Shown here: positions 1,298 through 12,906 of the stretch, in pieces
Layout: each line of letters opens with the position of its first letter
Position numbering within the stretch: the stretch's first letter is position 1
DNA from: a virus
Virus record (IMG/VR): IMGVR_UViG_3300028864_000016
Span: 124,001 to 188,000 of that record
DNA: 64,000 bases
Strand: one strand, 5' to 3'
The notes under the pieces: model-generated
The model's database searches: none
What the model was told of the DNA's origin: nothing
What the model saw: the letters and a program-made list of their open reading frames with translations, nothing else
Translations under genes and position numbers: made by a program

Positions 1298-1939
1298 CTA
1301 TTTCTTGATATAATATAGCAATAATCCACCTAATACATTAGATATTGTTACTATCACTAATGATATAATTACATTTATAATATTTAAATTCATTCCACTA
1401 CAAAATCCTAAAGTATAATAAGTCATATCTGCAATACTGTGATTAAATCCACATATTACAAACACAGTGATAAAGAATCCACTTATTAAATGATTACTAT
1501 ACATTTTGTAATTAGCTACTGCACAACATACAAGAAAATTACATACAATACCACCAATGATTAATTGTATTGGATTAAGTGCTAATTTAGTATTTACTAT
1601 TTGTTCTACATTTGGATGTAATACTTGAAATAATGCTATAGTCGTTATTACTGATCCTATTAAATTTCCAATCCAAGTTTTAGTTAATGTTTTAATATAT
1701 TCTTTAATTGATATATTACTTTTTGAAAAATATTGTTGTGTATATGTATCTGTTTTTAAACTTAATACTTGTCCAGTAAATAAATCGAATCCAAAAATCA
1801 TAACTAAACTTAAACCTAAATAGAACATAATACTTGCTATAAATGGACTATTTGTCTTTTGTAATGTTATTAAGTAAGCAAATGTACCTAATGATATAGA
1901 AACACCTGCCATTATAGAATTTTTATACTTACTTATCAT
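1298..1939 (-). CDS. formate/nitrite transporter (FNT/FocA) family channel
   Basis: A 213-residue, six-helix membrane protein of the FNT family (formate, nitrite or hydrosulfide channels). Family landmarks are visible: LFTGQ at about 53-57, GNLIGS at about 91-96, the conserved gating/protonation histidine in GFNHSIADM (His167, like FocA GFEHSIANM), and NVLGG at about 201-205. The length is a little short of bacterial FocA (about 280), mainly at the termini. The start lies inside the end of nrdG (11-base overlap), so it is translationally coupled to the class III reductase activase. Formate is the reductant of NrdD-type reductases, so formate entry is the natural guess for substrate. That is inferred from context; nitrite or another small anion is possible. 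Confidence 0.88.
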   Translation of the reverse strand: MISKYKNSIMAGVSISLGTFAYLITLQKTNSPFIASIMFYLGLSLVMIFGFDLFTGQVLSLKTDTYTQQYFSKSNISIKEYIKTLTKTWIGNLIGSVITTIALFQVLHPNVEQIVNTKLALNPIQLIIGGIVCNFLVCCAVANYKMYSNHLISGFFITVFVICGFNHSIADMTYYTLGFCSGMNLNIINVIISLVIVTISNVLGGLLLYYIKK

Positions 1940-2468: not shown

Positions 2469-4589
2469 TTATAGATGAATAACTCTTTCTTTAATTTCTT
2501 GTGTACGTCCTTTTGACCATAAGTTAGTACCTATATATCCACACGTTCTTCGCATTACTTGAAGTTCTGTTTCATCATCATTACCACAATTAGGACAATA
2601 CCATTTAAAGTTTTCATCATTTTTCATTTCACCTTTATATCCACATTTATAGCAAACATCTGGTTTGGTATTTATTTCAGCGTATTGAACATTATGATAC
2701 ATGAAATTAATTATTTGCTCAATTGCTTCTATATTTTTTGTCATATCTGGAACTTCTATATAGCTTATACATCCTCCAGAACTTATTGCATGAAACTGAG
2801 ATTCAAATTTTAACTTAGCAAATGCGTCTATTTCTTCTTTTACATTTACATGATAACTATTTGTATAATATAATTTATCAGTTATATTATTAATCTCTCC
2901 AAACTTTTGTTTATCTAACCTGCAAAATCTATAAACTGTATTTTCCGCTGGACTTCCATACAATCCAAAACCTATTCCAGTTTCTTTCTTCCAATCGTCA
3001 CATGCCTTTCTCATTCTTAGCATAATTTCTCTTGCTAGTTTTTCACCTTCTTCAGTAGTATGACTTACTCCTAGCATTGCATAAACCATTTCATATAAAC
3101 CTATATATCCTAATGATATAGTTGAATAACCATTATGTAATAACTTGTCTATCTTTTCACCTTTGTCCAATCTTGCTAATGCCCCATGTTGCCATAATAT
3201 AGGTGCTACATCTGATAAAGTTCCTTCTAATAACTCATGTCTAACCATTAATGCTTCCTTACATAATTGTAATCTCTCATCAAATATTCTCCACATTAAA
3301 TCAATATCTTTATGTGCTAATATTCCTATCCTTGATAAATTTAATGAAATAACGCCTTGATTAAATCTGCCATACCATTTGTAATTGCCATTTTCATCTT
3401 TCCATGGACTTAAATGCGATCTACAACCCATTGGTGGGAATGTATTTCCTTCATAATTTTGTCTTAATATTTTAGCTGATTGATAATCTGGAACTAATCT
3501 TTTAGCGTTACATTTTGCACAAAGCTTAGTTATATAATCATATTTACCACCTTCTAGACAATTATGAGTATCAAGTAAATAAACTAATTTAGGAAAAGCT
3601 TCACCTATTTCTTGCCCTTTATAGTTTTTCATACCTTCTAATCTTTGTTTAATCATTTCTTCACAAATCATAGCTTGTTCTTCTTCAAATTCAGAGCCTT
3701 CTTCAATTTCTAGATATATTGTAGCAAAAGGCGATTGCCCATTAGTTCCTGAGATTGTAGATAGTTGATATCTAATTGTTTGAACTCCACTTTTTAGTTC
3801 TTTTAATTTTATATCTTTTGCTAATATAATAGCAGTTTCTTCATTGAAATTCATATTTTTATAATGTTCCAATGCTTTATCATAAGCAACTCTTAAATAA
3901 GGGGCTAAATGTCTAATGGTTATGCTTTGCCCTCCATATTGACTGCTGGATACTTGTGCCATAATTTGAGTTGCTACAGTACATGCAGTTTCAAAAGATT
4001 TAGGGGTTTCAACTAATTTTTCATTGATAACTGTTCCATTAGTAAACATATCTTCTAAATTAATTAGGTCACAATTATGCATAGATTGCAATGTATAGTC
4101 CATATCATGCCAATGAATATCTCCACTTACATGAGCTTGAACTATTCTAGTTGGAATAAGTTTTCTTTTAGATAGATCCTTAGATACTTCTCCAGCTATT
4201 AAATCTCTTTGCGTTGAAACAACATATCCATTTTTATTTGAATTTTCTCTCATGACATCTTCATTTGTTGTATCTAATAATTTCAAAATACTTTCATCCG
4301 TTGTATTTATTTCTCTTTTGTATTCTTGTATAACTCTATATCCTTCATAAGATTTAGCAGTTTGAACATGTCCTAATTTAATTAATGTGTCATAAATATA
4401 ATCTTCAATCATATGTACTGTTGGAATTTTATCATCCATAGAAAATACTTTTTTACATTCATATGCTATTTTATCTGCAATAGATTCTTCTACTATTCCA
4501 CTGCCATATTTCATTGCTTTCAAAATAGCATTTCTAATCCTTTGTGTATCAAAGTCTACCTTTGTTCCGTCACGCTTTATAATTTGCAT
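2469..4589 (-). CDS. nrdD: anaerobic (class III) ribonucleoside-triphosphate reductase
   Basis: Reduces ribonucleoside triphosphates to dNTPs without oxygen. Counting from the ATG after SD GAAAGAGAG (a GTG three codons upstream is less likely): an ATP-cone at about 1-95; active-site Cys173 in MHNCDLINL; Cys389 in MGCRS and Asn410 in RFNQGV, exactly 21 residues apart as in the T4/E. coli type, in which the Asn binds formate; four zinc cysteines (646, 649, 665, 668); and the glycyl-radical loop RTCGYIG with Gly684 near the C terminus. So this is the formate-using type. With nrdG and the FNT channel downstream it forms an anaerobic dNTP module. Confidence 0.97.
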   Translation of the reverse strand: MQIIKRDGTKVDFDTQRIRNAILKAMKYGSGIVEESIADKIAYECKKVFSMDDKIPTVHMIEDYIYDTLIKLGHVQTAKSYEGYRVIQEYKREINTTDESILKLLDTTNEDVMRENSNKNGYVVSTQRDLIAGEVSKDLSKRKLIPTRIVQAHVSGDIHWHDMDYTLQSMHNCDLINLEDMFTNGTVINEKLVETPKSFETACTVATQIMAQVSSSQYGGQSITIRHLAPYLRVAYDKALEHYKNMNFNEETAIILAKDIKLKELKSGVQTIRYQLSTISGTNGQSPFATIYLEIEEGSEFEEEQAMICEEMIKQRLEGMKNYKGQEIGEAFPKLVYLLDTHNCLEGGKYDYITKLCAKCNAKRLVPDYQSAKILRQNYEGNTFPPMGCRSHLSPWKDENGNYKWYGRFNQGVISLNLSRIGILAHKDIDLMWRIFDERLQLCKEALMVRHELLEGTLSDVAPILWQHGALARLDKGEKIDKLLHNGYSTISLGYIGLYEMVYAMLGVSHTTEEGEKLAREIMLRMRKACDDWKKETGIGFGLYGSPAENTVYRFCRLDKQKFGEINNITDKLYYTNSYHVNVKEEIDAFAKLKFESQFHAISSGGCISYIEVPDMTKNIEAIEQIINFMYHNVQYAEINTKPDVCYKCGYKGEMKNDENFKWYCPNCGNDDETELQVMRRTCGYIGTNLWSKGRTQEIKERVIHL

Positions 4590-4651
4590 TAAATCCACTC
4601 TCTTTCACTTTATATATTTTGTTATATATACTATTTTCATAGTTATAATCT

Positions 4652-5941: not shown

Positions 5942-7456
5942 TTATATGACATTTTTTAAATTTTCATTATGCAATCCTTTTAATTTATTTGCTATATCAT
6001 ATTTTATATATTCTTCTGGGGTTAAGTATTCTATGTATTTGAAATGATGTCCTTTATGATAATTTCTTTCTTCTCGACAAACTCTAGATATTCCCCCATT
6101 ATTCATTATCACTCCAAAATCTTTTAAGCTTTTATTTGCACATTCAGTAGCAGATATGTATACTTGTTTTGTTTCCAAACAAATTACAGCTTTTGAATTG
6201 ATTAATTTATTGATTTCTGTAGCTTTTTTATATTTGTTAATATTAGCTTTTTCAGAGTCATAATTACACCAATTAAGCCTGTTACCCATTTTTAAGTATT
6301 TTTGTGCAGTAGAACCACTAATATTCATAGTTTTTCCTAAATCTGTAGCGAATTCAAAATTATATGTATTCCATATGTCGCAAGCTTCTTTAACTCTGTT
6401 AGAACAAGCAAATTCGTGGCATTTTAACCAATCAATAGCATTTAAATTTATTTGACTAGCTAAATTACTTTTTAATATATTATTTTTTATCCAATCTAAA
6501 TTACTTAATCTACAGTCTATAATAATATAGTTTTCTTCCTTGATATCATTTTGCAAAGCTAATTCTTTCTTAAATCTATCATTTTCTTGTTCATCTTCTA
6601 ACGTTCTACCGTTTTTCATTGTATAAAAAGATTTTTCATAATGTTGCTCTCCATTTGCTTCTATGATATATTTCTCATTATTATATTTAAAATAAAAATC
6701 ATATCTTTTAGAGTTTGACCATTTTGCCTTATATTCTGGTTTAAAAGTAAGATTTAATTGTTGCAATAAACTAAAAATAAATTTATTTGGATATGATAAT
6801 CCATCATTGCAACACCCTAATTTTTTACTATAAAAATGGTCTATTTTTCTTAATTTTTCACATCCACAATATATACATTTAAATAATATTTTTGAATGTG
6901 ACTGTGATTTGTATTTATATGCGTCTTCTTTATTAGACAACCATTGAATCATCCAAGGATCTGTTGTTGCAATATCATTTATACCTTTCATTATTGCACT
7001 ATGACCAAAACAGACAGCACAATTTTGTCCAGCTTTAAAATTACTTTCAAGCCTAATGCCAATATAGCCACATATAGGACATTTATATTCATAGGCTCTT
7101 ACATTTGTACCATTGCTAAGTTTTTGTCTTGTACACTTTATAATTTTAACTCCATTAACAGTCTCATTTAGCTTATAAAAATATTCATTAGTTCTTAATT
7201 TTAAAATATGAGAAAGTCCACATTTCTGAAAATCACCAGTTCTTATGAAATATTTTTCATCATTATAATATAGTTCTAATTGTTGTTTTTTAGAATTATA
7301 ATCAAATATAGTTATATATCCCTCTATATCATCATAAATGAATTTAACTTTATACCCTTTAGAATTCTTCCAATCTGTTACTTGCTTTTTTGAATTTGCT
7401 CCAATTCCTTGTTTGCATGGCAATTCTTCTAAAAATACTTTCCTAATAGTTATCAC
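5942..7456 (-). CDS. free-standing homing endonuclease, VSR-like with zinc ribbons and NUMOD1
   Basis: A 504-residue mosaic protein. N terminus of unknown fold; two CxxC...CxxC treble clefts (about 126-149 and 194-216) of the type seen in phage zinc-ribbon proteins; a VSR/EDxHD-type nuclease core with Asp253 (RYDFYF), Glu266 and His272 (IIEANGEQHYE); a C-terminal helical region; and a NUMOD1-like DNA-binding repeat (VICLETKQVYIS.. to ..GHHFKY). Such proteins cut specific DNA sites to spread themselves. It overlaps the next gene by 14 bases and does not interrupt an obvious reading frame. The start is uncertain: the GTG touches the SD GGAG, while an ATT lies 8 bases after it. Confidence 0.8.
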   Translation of the reverse strand: MITIRKVFLEELPCKQGIGANSKKQVTDWKNSKGYKVKFIYDDIEGYITIFDYNSKKQQLELYYNDEKYFIRTGDFQKCGLSHILKLRTNEYFYKLNETVNGVKIIKCTRQKLSNGTNVRAYEYKCPICGYIGIRLESNFKAGQNCAVCFGHSAIMKGINDIATTDPWMIQWLSNKEDAYKYKSQSHSKILFKCIYCGCEKLRKIDHFYSKKLGCCNDGLSYPNKFIFSLLQQLNLTFKPEYKAKWSNSKRYDFYFKYNNEKYIIEANGEQHYEKSFYTMKNGRTLEDEQENDRFKKELALQNDIKEENYIIIDCRLSNLDWIKNNILKSNLASQINLNAIDWLKCHEFACSNRVKEACDIWNTYNFEFATDLGKTMNISGSTAQKYLKMGNRLNWCNYDSEKANINKYKKATEINKLINSKAVICLETKQVYISATECANKSLKDFGVIMNNGGISRVCREERNYHKGHHFKYIEYLTPEEYIKYDIANKLKGLHNENLKNVI

Positions 7457-8051
7457 TCCTTTTGATTAATAATTTTCCAACAACCTTTCTAACACCTAAT
7501 TTATTTATACGTTTTTCATATTGATAATCTGTCTCATAACTTAATCTTTGAATAAATACATCTACTTTTATGTTTCCATTTGATAATGTTTTTATATAAT
7601 TTGGATTTCCTCTGTCTGTTGCAATATATTCTATCCCGTTAATAATTAATTTGCTTCCAAATGGGATATCTTTTGGAACAGCAACCTGTCCTTCTTTTAC
7701 AGGTATTCCACTAGCAGTAATAAACTTATTGTTTCCACACTCATTATAAGTTGCTCCATAATAAGATATTATAAAAGTTTTCTCTTCCCATTCAGGTTCA
7801 TTTTTCTGTTGTTCTTTTAGTAATATTTTAGCTTTTTCATCTTTCTTTTTACCAAGTTCAATTCTATCTTTTTCAAATTGTTCTTGAATCGGATTAATTC
7901 CTAATCCAAATCTATCTTTATGTACCATTATATCTACATTAGCTTCTTCTTTAATATTATTCGCTAATGGTGTCATAGTGGCTGTTGGTATCGTAAATAG
8001 TAAACTACTTGATAATAATACCATAGACAGACACATTGTCCTATTTCGCAT
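7443..8051 (-). CDS. secreted 3D-domain (double-psi beta-barrel) protein
   Basis: An N-terminal signal peptide is clear (basic start, hydrophobic stretch MVLLSSSLLFTI, small residues near 23-30). After a charged linker comes a 3D domain at about 95-170: TASGIPVKEGQVAVPKD (Asp128), IATDRGNP (Asp146) and IKVDVF (Asp164), the three aspartates that name the family. These domains occur in peptidoglycan-active proteins such as lytic transglycosylases and Stc proteins. In a phage the likely place of action is the cell surface, for example wall remodelling or exclusion of other phages. The role is inferred. Confidence 0.87.
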   Translation of the reverse strand: MRNRTMCLSMVLLSSSLLFTIPTATMTPLANNIKEEANVDIMVHKDRFGLGINPIQEQFEKDRIELGKKKDEKAKILLKEQQKNEPEWEEKTFIISYYGATYNECGNNKFITASGIPVKEGQVAVPKDIPFGSKLIINGIEYIATDRGNPNYIKTLSNGNIKVDVFIQRLSYETDYQYEKRINKLGVRKVVGKLLIKRSDNY

Positions 8052-8086: not shown

Positions 8087-8965
8087 TTATATACTCATTA
8101 ATTCTGTAAATTCTATAACTTTTCCAGTTTCATTTGCTATTTCAACTATATTGGTAGCAAGTTCTTGAACTGCTGAATTTGTTTGTTCCATGCATGCACT
8201 CATTGAAACACATCCATCATTTATACCTTCTATACGAGATATTCTAAGTACATTGCTTTCTTTTAATTTTTTACTATTTTCTTTCCCCGTTTCAGTTTTT
8301 TCAAGAATAACGTTAGCCATAACTTGTAATTCTTTTATAATTTGACTTATCATTATACTAGAATCTTTAGTTTCTTGTGCGAGTTTTTTAACTTCATTTG
8401 CAACAACTCCAAATCCTTTACCTGCTTCACCTGCTCTTGCAGATTCAATATTGGCATTTAATGATAATAAATTGGTTTGATTAGCTATGTCTTTAATCAC
8501 ATCTGTTATTTTATCAATGTCTTTCATTTTAACATGTAATTCATTTGCATTATTATTGATATCAGCTATAGCATCGTGAAATATTGCCATAACTCCACTA
8601 TTGTCTTTAGCACTTTCATAAGCAAGATTAACTTCTGAAGAAATATTAACTATATTCGCTGTTACTTCTTCTACCGTTGCACTTATTTCCTCCACTGAAC
8701 CTGCTTGACCTGTTATATTATTACTAATTATAGACATCTCTTTTAATAATTTTTCATTTGATTCGGATGTTGACTTCTTATATTCTTCGAATGTTTTATC
8801 TTTTTCAATTAATGTTATATGTAGTTCTTCATTTTGTAATTCCAGTTCTTTGATTTTACTATCTTTCTTTAATTCAAGTTCTTCTAGTTTATCATTCGTT
8901 TCCTTTTCTAAAGTTATTCTTAGTTCATTTAACCCTTTTTCATTTTTAAATAATTTTTTCATCAT
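8087..8965 (-). CDS. soluble methyl-accepting chemotaxis signalling protein
   Basis: About 292 residues from the ATG after SD GAGGGAG. The N-terminal third is a charged coiled coil ([17 protein letters not shown]). The remainder is an MCP signalling domain with the highly conserved hairpin tip [20 protein letters not shown] followed by [18 protein letters not shown] at about 160-195, the region that binds CheW and CheA. There is no signal peptide, membrane helix or sensor domain, so it would act in the cytoplasm and join or disturb host chemoreceptor arrays. The adaptation-site regions look short. It lies alone behind a box-rich intergenic region. A host-captured gene used to change motility during infection is the most likely explanation. 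Confidence 0.92.
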
Positions 8966-9100
8966 ATTAATACACTCCCTCATTAATTTATTACTTGTTG
9001 GCTTTCAATACTTTGTCAACGCTAAATTGTCAGGAACTTGTATTATGTTTAGTTTTATGTCATTAATACTTTTATCACCTCTGTTTATATTAATTTATTA
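8966..9100. promoter_or_regulatory. intergenic region with boxes and a weak promoter
   Basis: This 135-base gap upstream of the chemotaxis gene has TTAATTTATT boxes at both ends. A minus-strand CTGACA, 17 bases, TATTGA pair is the best promoter candidate but is weak at -10. An alternative TTGACA nearby has no good -10 at 17 bases. Confidence 0.3.
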
Positions 9101-9394
9101 TTAATCTTTTATATACCCACAATCACAACCATATTTATATACAGTTTCATATACTTCTCTACCTTGCATTTCTCCTCTTGGCTCGTCCCGCTTATCAATT
9201 ACAATTAATTCATCTCCACATTTGGGACATCTACTTAACTTTTCTGCAAATTCTTCTATTTCTCTTGTTAGTTCAACTATAAATTTTTTGGGATTATTAT
9301 TAACATCGTCTATTAATTCTTTTATCATCTGAATTGTTTCTCCTACTTCATAACAATCTCTATTTATTATTTGTATTAATTCATATTTATCCAT
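9101..9394 (-). CDS. small zinc-ribbon protein
   Basis: Start set at MDKYELIQ, after the SD-like GAGGAGTGGGAG. The N-terminal half is helical. The C-terminal half carries CPKCGDELIV..CDCGY, a four-cysteine ribbon. It lies directly downstream of another zinc-ribbon gene. Function unknown. Confidence 0.68.
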   Translation of the reverse strand: MDKYELIQIINRDCYEVGETIQMIKELIDDVNNNPKKFIVELTREIEEFAEKLSRCPKCGDELIVIDKRDEPRGEMQGREVYETVYKYGCDCGYIKD

Positions 9395-9416
9395 AATATC
9401 CACTCCCACTCCTCTC

Positions 9417-9662
9417 TTATTCATCTTTAATTTCGATTTCTTTATTTCTATCAAACACATAGTGAGTATGTTCGTTTATTGTTATTTTACTTTGAAAATA
9501 AAATTTATTATTACAATTACCATTCATACATCTAGCTACAAACTCAGTATATTTAGTTCCATCTATTTCTACTAATTTATAATCATCTGTTAATTGATAT
9601 TTAGATTCTTTACATTCAGGGCAATATAATCTATTGTCCTTCAAAATTGCTTTTAATATCAT
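9417..9662 (-). CDS. small zinc-ribbon protein
   Basis: 81 residues with CPEC near residue 14 and CMNGNC near 45, resembling ogr/delta-like or transcript-associated zinc ribbons. The following NKFYFQSKITINEHTHYVF is beta-rich. Function unknown; it lies in the sigma-factor operon. Confidence 0.7.
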   Translation of the reverse strand: MILKAILKDNRLYCPECKESKYQLTDDYKLVEIDGTKYTEFVARCMNGNCNNKFYFQSKITINEHTHYVFDRNKEIEIKDE

Positions 9663-12195: not shown

Positions 12196-12906
12196 CTATA
12201 ATTCTATTTTCAAAATTTCATAGCTTGTTCCAATTAAATTTAGTCCATTGATTAGATTGCTGAGAAATTCTCCATTTGAATAATCTTCTTTTTCAAAGTC
12301 ATCAACTATTTGAACACCATTTGCAAAAGTCTTAATATTATTCTTATGCTTTTCATATGTAAATATATCATTCTTTTTAACTCCATGTTCCATATTTGTT
12401 TCTTTAAATACTATTTCTATTTTCACAACTTCATTCCTCCTAAATAATTCTAACGCTTTTTCTAATTCATTTTTGGTAAATCCATAATAGTCATTACATT
12501 GAACTAATCTATATTCCAAGTCTTCCACATCATTATCATCATCTAAAATTACATAATTTATATCCATATTAGAAAACATATATAGCCACATTTCTATTTC
12601 TTCACCTCTAGTTTTTCTATCTAATATAGGTGTACATGAGAAGAATCTATTTTCCAACCCATATAATTTTAAATTGTTACAAATATCTTTTATGCCATTA
12701 TCAGTATTTCTCCATGATGAACTTATAACTATGTATGCATTAGTTTTGTCTATTAATTCTTTTAAATTTTTCATACAAATTGGATCAAAATTAAATTGAG
12801 CATTCCAGCTATCACATTCAAAACATTTAACTTGATAATCTTGAAATCTCCATGTATTAAGAACTCCATCAATATCTAAAAATATTATATTTGTTTTATT
12901 TTGCAT
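12196..12906 (-). CDS. HAD-superfamily hydrolase, nucleic-acid-repair type
   Basis: 236 residues. The HAD motifs are present: IFLDIDGVLNT (Asp11 nucleophile, Asp13), VISSSWRN (motif II Ser) and VILDDDNDV (motif IV acids). The SSSWR signature is that of the HAD domain found in 'Swiss army knife' RNA-repair proteins and phage polynucleotide phosphatases. The last 70 residues form an extra, probably beta-rich domain. A 3'- or 5'-phosphatase acting on nucleotides or nucleic-acid ends is the likely role, inferred from family. Confidence 0.85.
   Translation of the reverse strand: MQNKTNIIFLDIDGVLNTWRFQDYQVKCFECDSWNAQFNFDPICMKNLKELIDKTNAYIVISSSWRNTDNGIKDICNNLKLYGLENRFFSCTPILDRKTRGEEIEMWLYMFSNMDINYVILDDDNDVEDLEYRLVQCNDYYGFTKNELEKALELFRRNEVVKIEIVFKETNMEHGVKKNDIFTYEKHKNNIKTFANGVQIVDDFEKEDYSNGEFLSNLINGLNLIGTSYEILKIEL

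Follow-up and report, generated by a model that had tools for sequence, protein, structure and literature searches.

In chemoreceptors of the MCP type, the hairpin tip is the part recognised by CheA and CheW. Among described systems, Tm14 of Thermotoga, a soluble receptor that has no sensor, comes closest to the protein reported here; we take PDB entry 3g67 (also 3g6b) to be this soluble chemoreceptor of T. maritima, and 3ur1 and 4jpb to be its tip fragments in complexes with CheA and CheW. Passages of published work describe membrane-free cytoplasmic fragments of E. coli receptors as forming arrays with CheA/CheW (PMC3964821) and FrzCD as binding DNA (PMC12077210). In 5.39 million open-access papers, a scope that leaves out most subscription articles and bioRxiv preprints, phage-encoded chemotaxis proteins gave no exact-phrase match, and no title among the matches listed dealt with a sensorless chemoreceptor encoded by a phage. 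A preliminary description of the DNA had stated that phage-encoded chemoreceptor signalling domains are rarely discussed; the open literature agrees, although databases do contain phage records with MCPs. What is new about the present locus is the setting of a familiar domain, found here in a conserved phage-borne family of receptors that have no sensor.

The gene and the virus record that carries it

The window, the whole stretch of 64,000 nucleotides analysed in this study, comprises bases 124001-188000 of a 218,173-base IMG/VR virus record (IMGVR_UViG_3300028864_000016). The gene and the parts of its product are as follows.

8087..8965, minus strand: soluble phage chemoreceptor signalling protein, 292 aa (ORF; PF00015; start as in three of four relatives; AF2 hairpin)
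8756..8941, minus strand: N-terminal helical extension beyond the hairpin, residues about 9-70
8636..8692, minus strand: first adaptation region, residues 92-110, with E92/E93 and E99/E100
8420..8479, minus strand: hairpin tip, residues 163-182
8162..8188, minus strand: second adaptation region, residues 260-268, with E260/Q261 and Q267/E268

The ORF list of the window gives a 298-aa frame from the first ATG (8087-8983, minus strand). In L041, L043 and L045, three of the other four members, the frame's first ATG corresponds to the inner ATG at 8965, which is preceded in the window by GGGAG; a start at 8965, giving 292 aa, therefore appears likelier than the 298-aa form, in agreement with the boundary drawn in the preliminary description. 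L042, like the window, has an extra upstream ATG and was trimmed for comparison. Residue numbers of the phage MCP follow the 292-aa start, except for the query in the Tsr alignment (298-aa numbering). A promoter and terminator scan gave 43 promoter-like sites against 38.2 expected and 0 terminators, and both results are uninformative.

PF00015 (MCPsignal) was the single Pfam domain in the window protein (1.3e-30, 107 bits against a cut-off of 34.6) and was present in all five members of the family (102-112 bits, cut-off 34.6). PHROGs assigned the protein to phrog_8572 (1.8e-33), a 533-position phage family of unknown function. HAMP and sensor domains had no Pfam match in the window protein, no transmembrane helix was indicated by hydropathy (top 19-residue Kyte-Doolittle mean, 1.29), and neither a CZB nor a protoglobin domain was matched by the window protein at E 0.001 or by the four other members at 0.01. 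By Pfam and hydropathy, the membrane helices, HAMP and ligand domain of canonical transmembrane chemoreceptors were thus not found, and the earlier assignment as a soluble MCP-type protein with no transmembrane or sensor domain was borne out; the tip letters quoted with it are exact in the ORF translation. The AF2 model is one hairpin, consisting of helix 9-178, tip loop 179-182 and helix 183-291 (mean pLDDT 83.9, pTM 0.41), and it is from this model that the long antiparallel two-helix form is taken.

The record encodes tape-measure, tail-fibre, neck and virion proteins on one strand, together with DnaE, a DnaB-like helicase, primase, RecJ, NAD ligase and a DNA methyltransferase. No tRNA was found in it, and neither a terminase nor a major capsid protein was named among 50 of its proteins scanned with PHROGs. 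It contains a single MCP match. The surroundings, called phage-type beforehand, are therefore those of a virus record with virion and replication genes. A chromosomal origin of the region, with the gene an ordinary host receptor, was looked for and not found; a chromosomal receptor in a mis-called contig was rejected on the virion and replication genes, the lack of tRNA, the single MCP and a gene order repeated in phage contigs.

The closest match of the record's DnaE was that of Clostridioides phage pCD1602_4 (55%), and a clostridial or clostridia-like host is likely. Activity of the gene in lysogeny is possible, since a tubulin-family gene with a sub-threshold TubZ match and a gene of integrase type are also present in the record. 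The former (L004 6903-7988, minus strand) encodes a tubulin/FtsZ-family GTPase (PF00091, 53.7 bits) with a sub-threshold match to the TubZ C-terminus and a PhuZ match, suggestive of plasmid-like partition or of a phage spindle; the product of the latter (L010 17028-18185, minus strand) has a match to the MrpR N-terminal domain.

Several other genes were observed. The window carries a phage formate/nitrite transporter gene (1298-1939, minus strand; PF01226, 119 bits) near that of an anaerobic ribonucleotide reductase (2469-4598), and a HAD domain of the Swiss Army Knife RNA-repair type (12196-12906, minus strand; PF18143, 96.9 bits). Six proteins of one phage record, homing-endonuclease-like by other matches, matched phrog_4538 (window 5942-7456; L004 11656-13062; L006 13683-15521; L008 11245-12897; L010 2371-4311 and 4356-5933).

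The phage family, its conservation and its neighbourhood

Scanning IMG/VR with the single protein returned nothing beyond a copy of 100% identity in a 49-kb (twin) contig, and a helicase scan of viral contigs returned the twin contig only. Among 20 records with related DnaE, the twin contig included, 4 had an MCP over the cut-off and 3 more had sub-threshold MCP matches only, inside frames of 523-2329 aa. A scan with the alignment of members gave eight loci, corresponding to five distinct proteins including that of the window (L043 and L044 encode the same protein; L046 and L047 were counted as copies of L045 by equal scores). Relatives of the gene, for which the preliminary description had proposed a search, are thus at hand as four other distinct members in phage contigs, with identities to the window protein of 73% (L041), 61% (L042), 56% (L043) and 57% (L045), a range of about 56-74%. 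As a lone query, the window protein matched five of six phage records with scores of 285-405 bits; the family profile scored 505-516 bits on five phage records whose rows had built it. The phage-record search gave 52 matching records, none with coverage of 80%, and many of these, unannotated fecal or serovar-named records resembling bacterial DNA, were excluded.

The tip, QTNLLSLNA[NS]IESARAG[ED], was present in all five distinct members. Loss of tip residues in relatives had been named as a sign against the original assignment; it was looked for and is absent, apart from an E to D change in the acidic position in L041. Distances of the adaptation motifs were counted from this acidic residue, and the motif scan used a methylation-site consensus pattern that we take from general knowledge. 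Strict motifs were found at -88 and +80 in 5/5 members; the motif at -81 was strict in three and one residue off in the other two, and a near-match at +87 was present in 3/5. Shuffled proteins reached the observed strict-motif count in 0-2 of 2000 cases per member. For the window protein, the number of strict motifs (two) was equalled by only 2/2000 shuffles, and the motifs are therefore beyond chance.

Nei-Gojobori (NG86) dN/dS was 0.20-0.44 over the ten pairs of five members; the whole gene is under purifying selection. The tip region (columns 151-212) had the lowest pN (0.147) and 35/62 invariant columns, compared with 21/38 in the second (C-terminal) arm (213-250) and 18/67 in the N-terminal extension (columns 4-70). 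Because the invariant share of the C-terminal arm is as large as that of the tip region, conservation extends beyond the CheA/CheW end. When 15 rows including ordinary MCPs were compared, 20 columns were invariant, all of them at the tip. The N-terminal helix gave no clear coiled-coil periodicity, the peak exceeding the shuffle 95% level in 2/5 members, at period 3.60; a leucine-zipper-like N-terminal dimeriser is unsupported by this test. A FrzCD-like DNA-binding N-terminus is likewise not suggested, the net charge of residues 9-70 being -6 to +1 in the five members.

The genes that flank the MCP gene in the window are listed below.

7443..8051, minus strand: probably secreted protein with a 3D-like domain
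9101..9460, minus strand: small upstream protein with cysteine pairs
9417..9662, minus strand: small upstream protein with cysteine pairs

The MCP gene lies directly before the 3D-like gene in all five members, the downstream product having 190-202 aa. The window copy of the 3D-like protein had no Pfam match, and the L042 copy gave a weak, sub-threshold 3D match (E 5e-4). Of its homologues in C. difficile phages, one is annotated '3D containing' and one has a predicted signal peptide. Its structural model is poor (mean pLDDT 65.1); the sole PDB match under E 0.001 was a diffocin baseplate protein, and MltA and expansins matched far more weakly. On the other side, the product of 9417-9662 is 68-71% identical in two relatives and was also aligned, as DNA, in L045, so that it is recognisable in 4/5 members; no homologue is among the ORFs listed for L042. 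ORFs similar to 9101-9460, which matched no Pfam family at the cut-off, were seen by eye in L042, L043 and L045. A type II topoisomerase A gene was observed upstream of the MCP cassette in relatives (L042 610-2862, PF00521; L041, L043 and L045 by eye).

The 3D-like gene was present in 11 of 20 phage records searched, 5 of which also have the MCP; 3 of the 5 MCP-bearing records, including the window's own, were listed because of the MCP, and the 5/11 share is no estimate. A close relative, G004 (IMG/VR 2872351278_000001), has DnaE and RecJ 87% and 86% identical to those of the window. Its 115-kb contig contains no MCP and keeps the 3D-like gene, with frames of at most 60 aa in the 1.5 kb before it. 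In two C. difficile phages with the 3D gene, no MCP is annotated nearby. Identity of the MCP does not track that of the replication genes: G003 has DnaE 95%, RecJ 92% and MCP 57% identical to those of the window, G016 (L027) has RecJ 92%, DnaE 41-57% and MCP 74%, and G022 has DnaE 31% and MCP 62%. RecJ was found in three of the six records compared, many of which are fragments. Because G004 keeps the 3D-like gene without the MCP, and because the MCP does not follow the replication genes, the MCP gene looks like an exchangeable cassette between phages. The DnaE gene of G016 may itself have been exchanged, since it is 41-57% identical despite the 92% of RecJ. The DnaE match of G023 is in two pieces, one with internal stops.

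Two pattern scans of bacterial genome contigs revealed no bacterial ortholog; they rest on short peptides, one on N-terminal peptides only, and distant donors would escape them. The single match of the N-terminal scan was an ordinary Tissierella receptor (33%). With the family profile, 391 genomes of one clostridial class (that of Tissierella) gave 0 matches at 1e-35 and 133/391 at 1e-22, with up to six candidates scored per genome, so that a miss is possible; the best match (L054/L088), at 116 bits against the 505-516 of the members that built the profile, was a CZB-containing receptor. Orthologs may exist in bacterial genomes outside those drawn. Among plasmids, 4,254 records matched and 2 covered at least 80%, the top-listed ones being ordinary receptors of 29-38% identity. 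In a tree of 16 rows, the phage group fell on one side of a branch with weak support (57/95), the bacterial branches being long; distances from the window protein were 0.28-0.94 changes per column to the other members and 4.27 to the next row. The phage family is separate from the other rows, and only this separateness is drawn from the tree, which left out most rows of L054-L083 (several of which lie on the other strand of their loci) and five translated rows (P0003-P0007), the row labelled P0003 representing the final entry of its file (261 aa, as long as P0008).

Proposed function and alternative explanations

The explanation that we prefer, and to which we give about an even chance of being correct, is that this phage-encoded sensorless soluble chemoreceptor would join host CheA/CheW and impose a ligand-independent, adaptation-tuned swimming bias. 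The phage MCP would fold as a long antiparallel hairpin and act as a dimer, as MCPs do. Its conserved tip points to docking with host CheA and CheW, whether within the membrane arrays or in separate cytosolic arrays that it forms, and the output would be set by its own conformation and by modification of the adaptation sites by host CheR/CheB or CheD. CheA activity would then be uncoupled from gradients, and infected or lysogenic cells would swim with a fixed or shifted bias. Since active CheA favours smooth swimming in the Bacillus system, infected cells would run straight if the protein were of a kinase-on form. That the adaptation motifs are kept in register though no sensor is present suggests a methylation-set, conformation-set output, and retention of symmetrical methylation-site motifs argues for tuned signalling rather than only jamming. 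The preliminary idea that the protein may join or jam host arrays, or draw off CheA/CheW, is supported in part, by the phage origin of the gene, its occurrence in relatives and the conserved tip. Host motility is assumed here, and the host may not swim. The cited passages document a virus that lowers host swimming via transcription (PMC12542753) and describe Salmonella McpC, a possible precedent for a single receptor setting swimming bias (PMC7806825).

Alternatively, the protein could be a decoy that binds CheW/CheA off the membrane arrays and breaks signalling, leaving non-chemotactic cells, with the adaptation sites as inherited baggage. Such a role would be consistent with a soluble, unanchored protein with a conserved tip, and a single gene, like the one MCP match in the record, would suffice as a titrating factor. 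A decoy needs the tip only, yet the adaptation motifs stand in register on both arms in 5/5 members and selection acts on the whole gene, and we consider this explanation unlikely.

A more doubtful possibility is that the hairpin serves a role other than swimming, either in another chemosensory output (pili, development) or as a scaffold, with the N-terminal helix binding a phage protein. The invariant columns of this helix, with no bacterial carrier found by the pattern scan on it, agree with such a role, as do the C-terminal arm, as rich in invariant columns as the tip, and the fixed neighbourhood with a wall-type protein gene. The tip region, however, is the lowest in non-synonymous change and keeps the residues of ordinary MCPs, which points to CheA/CheW, and the charge of the N-terminus does not suggest DNA binding as in FrzCD. 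That the gene is a passenger, a fragment of an ordinary host receptor acquired by chance and functionless in the phage, is very improbable, as five divergent intact members with low dN/dS lie in the same place and no bacterial ortholog was found as donor in the 391 genomes at E 1e-35 or in the two pattern scans, even though the gene is dispensable in G004.

The reading of the protein as a tuned, array-joining receptor can be extended. Large clostridial-type phages might trade a chemoreceptor cassette that solely rewrites host navigation, the protein entering the arrays, being tuned by host methylation and replacing gradient sensing with a virus-set swimming programme; we put this forward tentatively, as possible but short of probable. 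If true, a protein made to enter the chemotaxis array itself would give the virus a direct and testable means of steering or freezing the infected cell, and it would reveal which receptor parts are sufficient for ligand-free signalling. Five natural variants are available for comparison, together with a close relative whose contig has no MCP gene.

Comparison with known receptors

In the PDB, the best sequence match of the family profile was 2ch7, a Thermotoga receptor (108.7-109.4 bits), followed at lower scores by the receptor fragments 3ur1 (66.8 bits) and 4jpb (66.7 bits) and by 3g67 (60.9 bits). Foldseek of the phage MCP model gave no match at E 0.001 in the PDB or the viral library, and in structural alignment an SMC coiled coil outranked 3g67 (Z 15.3 vs 15.0). 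Since the structural matches do not exceed those of unrelated long hairpins, it is the sequence that carries the MCP case.

With the canonical transmembrane MCPs, Tsr and 2ch7, the phage protein shares the tip, the hairpin and the first adaptation motifs; it differs in having no ligand domain, transmembrane helices or HAMP. In the alignment with E. coli Tsr, query residues 86-274 correspond to chain residues 291-479 without net gaps, and the first two adaptation motifs fall at Tsr 304 and 311, which we take to be known methylation sites; the phage protein presumably ends near the position of Tsr's C-terminal methylation sites. Compared with 2ch7, the arms are shorter: relative to the profile, the first arm of 2ch7 carries two seven-residue insertions and one three-residue insertion, and its second arm is longer by about seven residues. 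Such a difference might make it harder for the phage protein to mix with host receptors as long as 2ch7.

Receptors of the TlpD/CZB type, HemAT and FrzCD resemble the phage protein in being cytosolic and having the MCP hairpin. The phage protein differs from them in having no CZB domain, no protoglobin and no basic N-terminus, the last being a feature of FrzCD. Complete MCPs were found in two other phage records of more than 270 kb, both annotated as hypothetical:

L091 1151-2983: dCache-HAMP-MCP, Vibrio phage XC31
L092 1586-3112: protoglobin-MCP, Microcystis phage MaAM05

Unlike the phage family described here, these receptors are whole sensors and not sensorless.

The features of a Tm14-like sensorless soluble receptor, namely a hairpin without membrane or sensor domain and with arms of equal length, were found in the phage protein. 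The alignment ranges are equal and cover 213/213 residues of 3g67 (rmsd 9.5), with 8% identity in the structural alignment. Tm14 is bacterial and chromosomal, whereas the phage family has its own conserved N-terminal helix.
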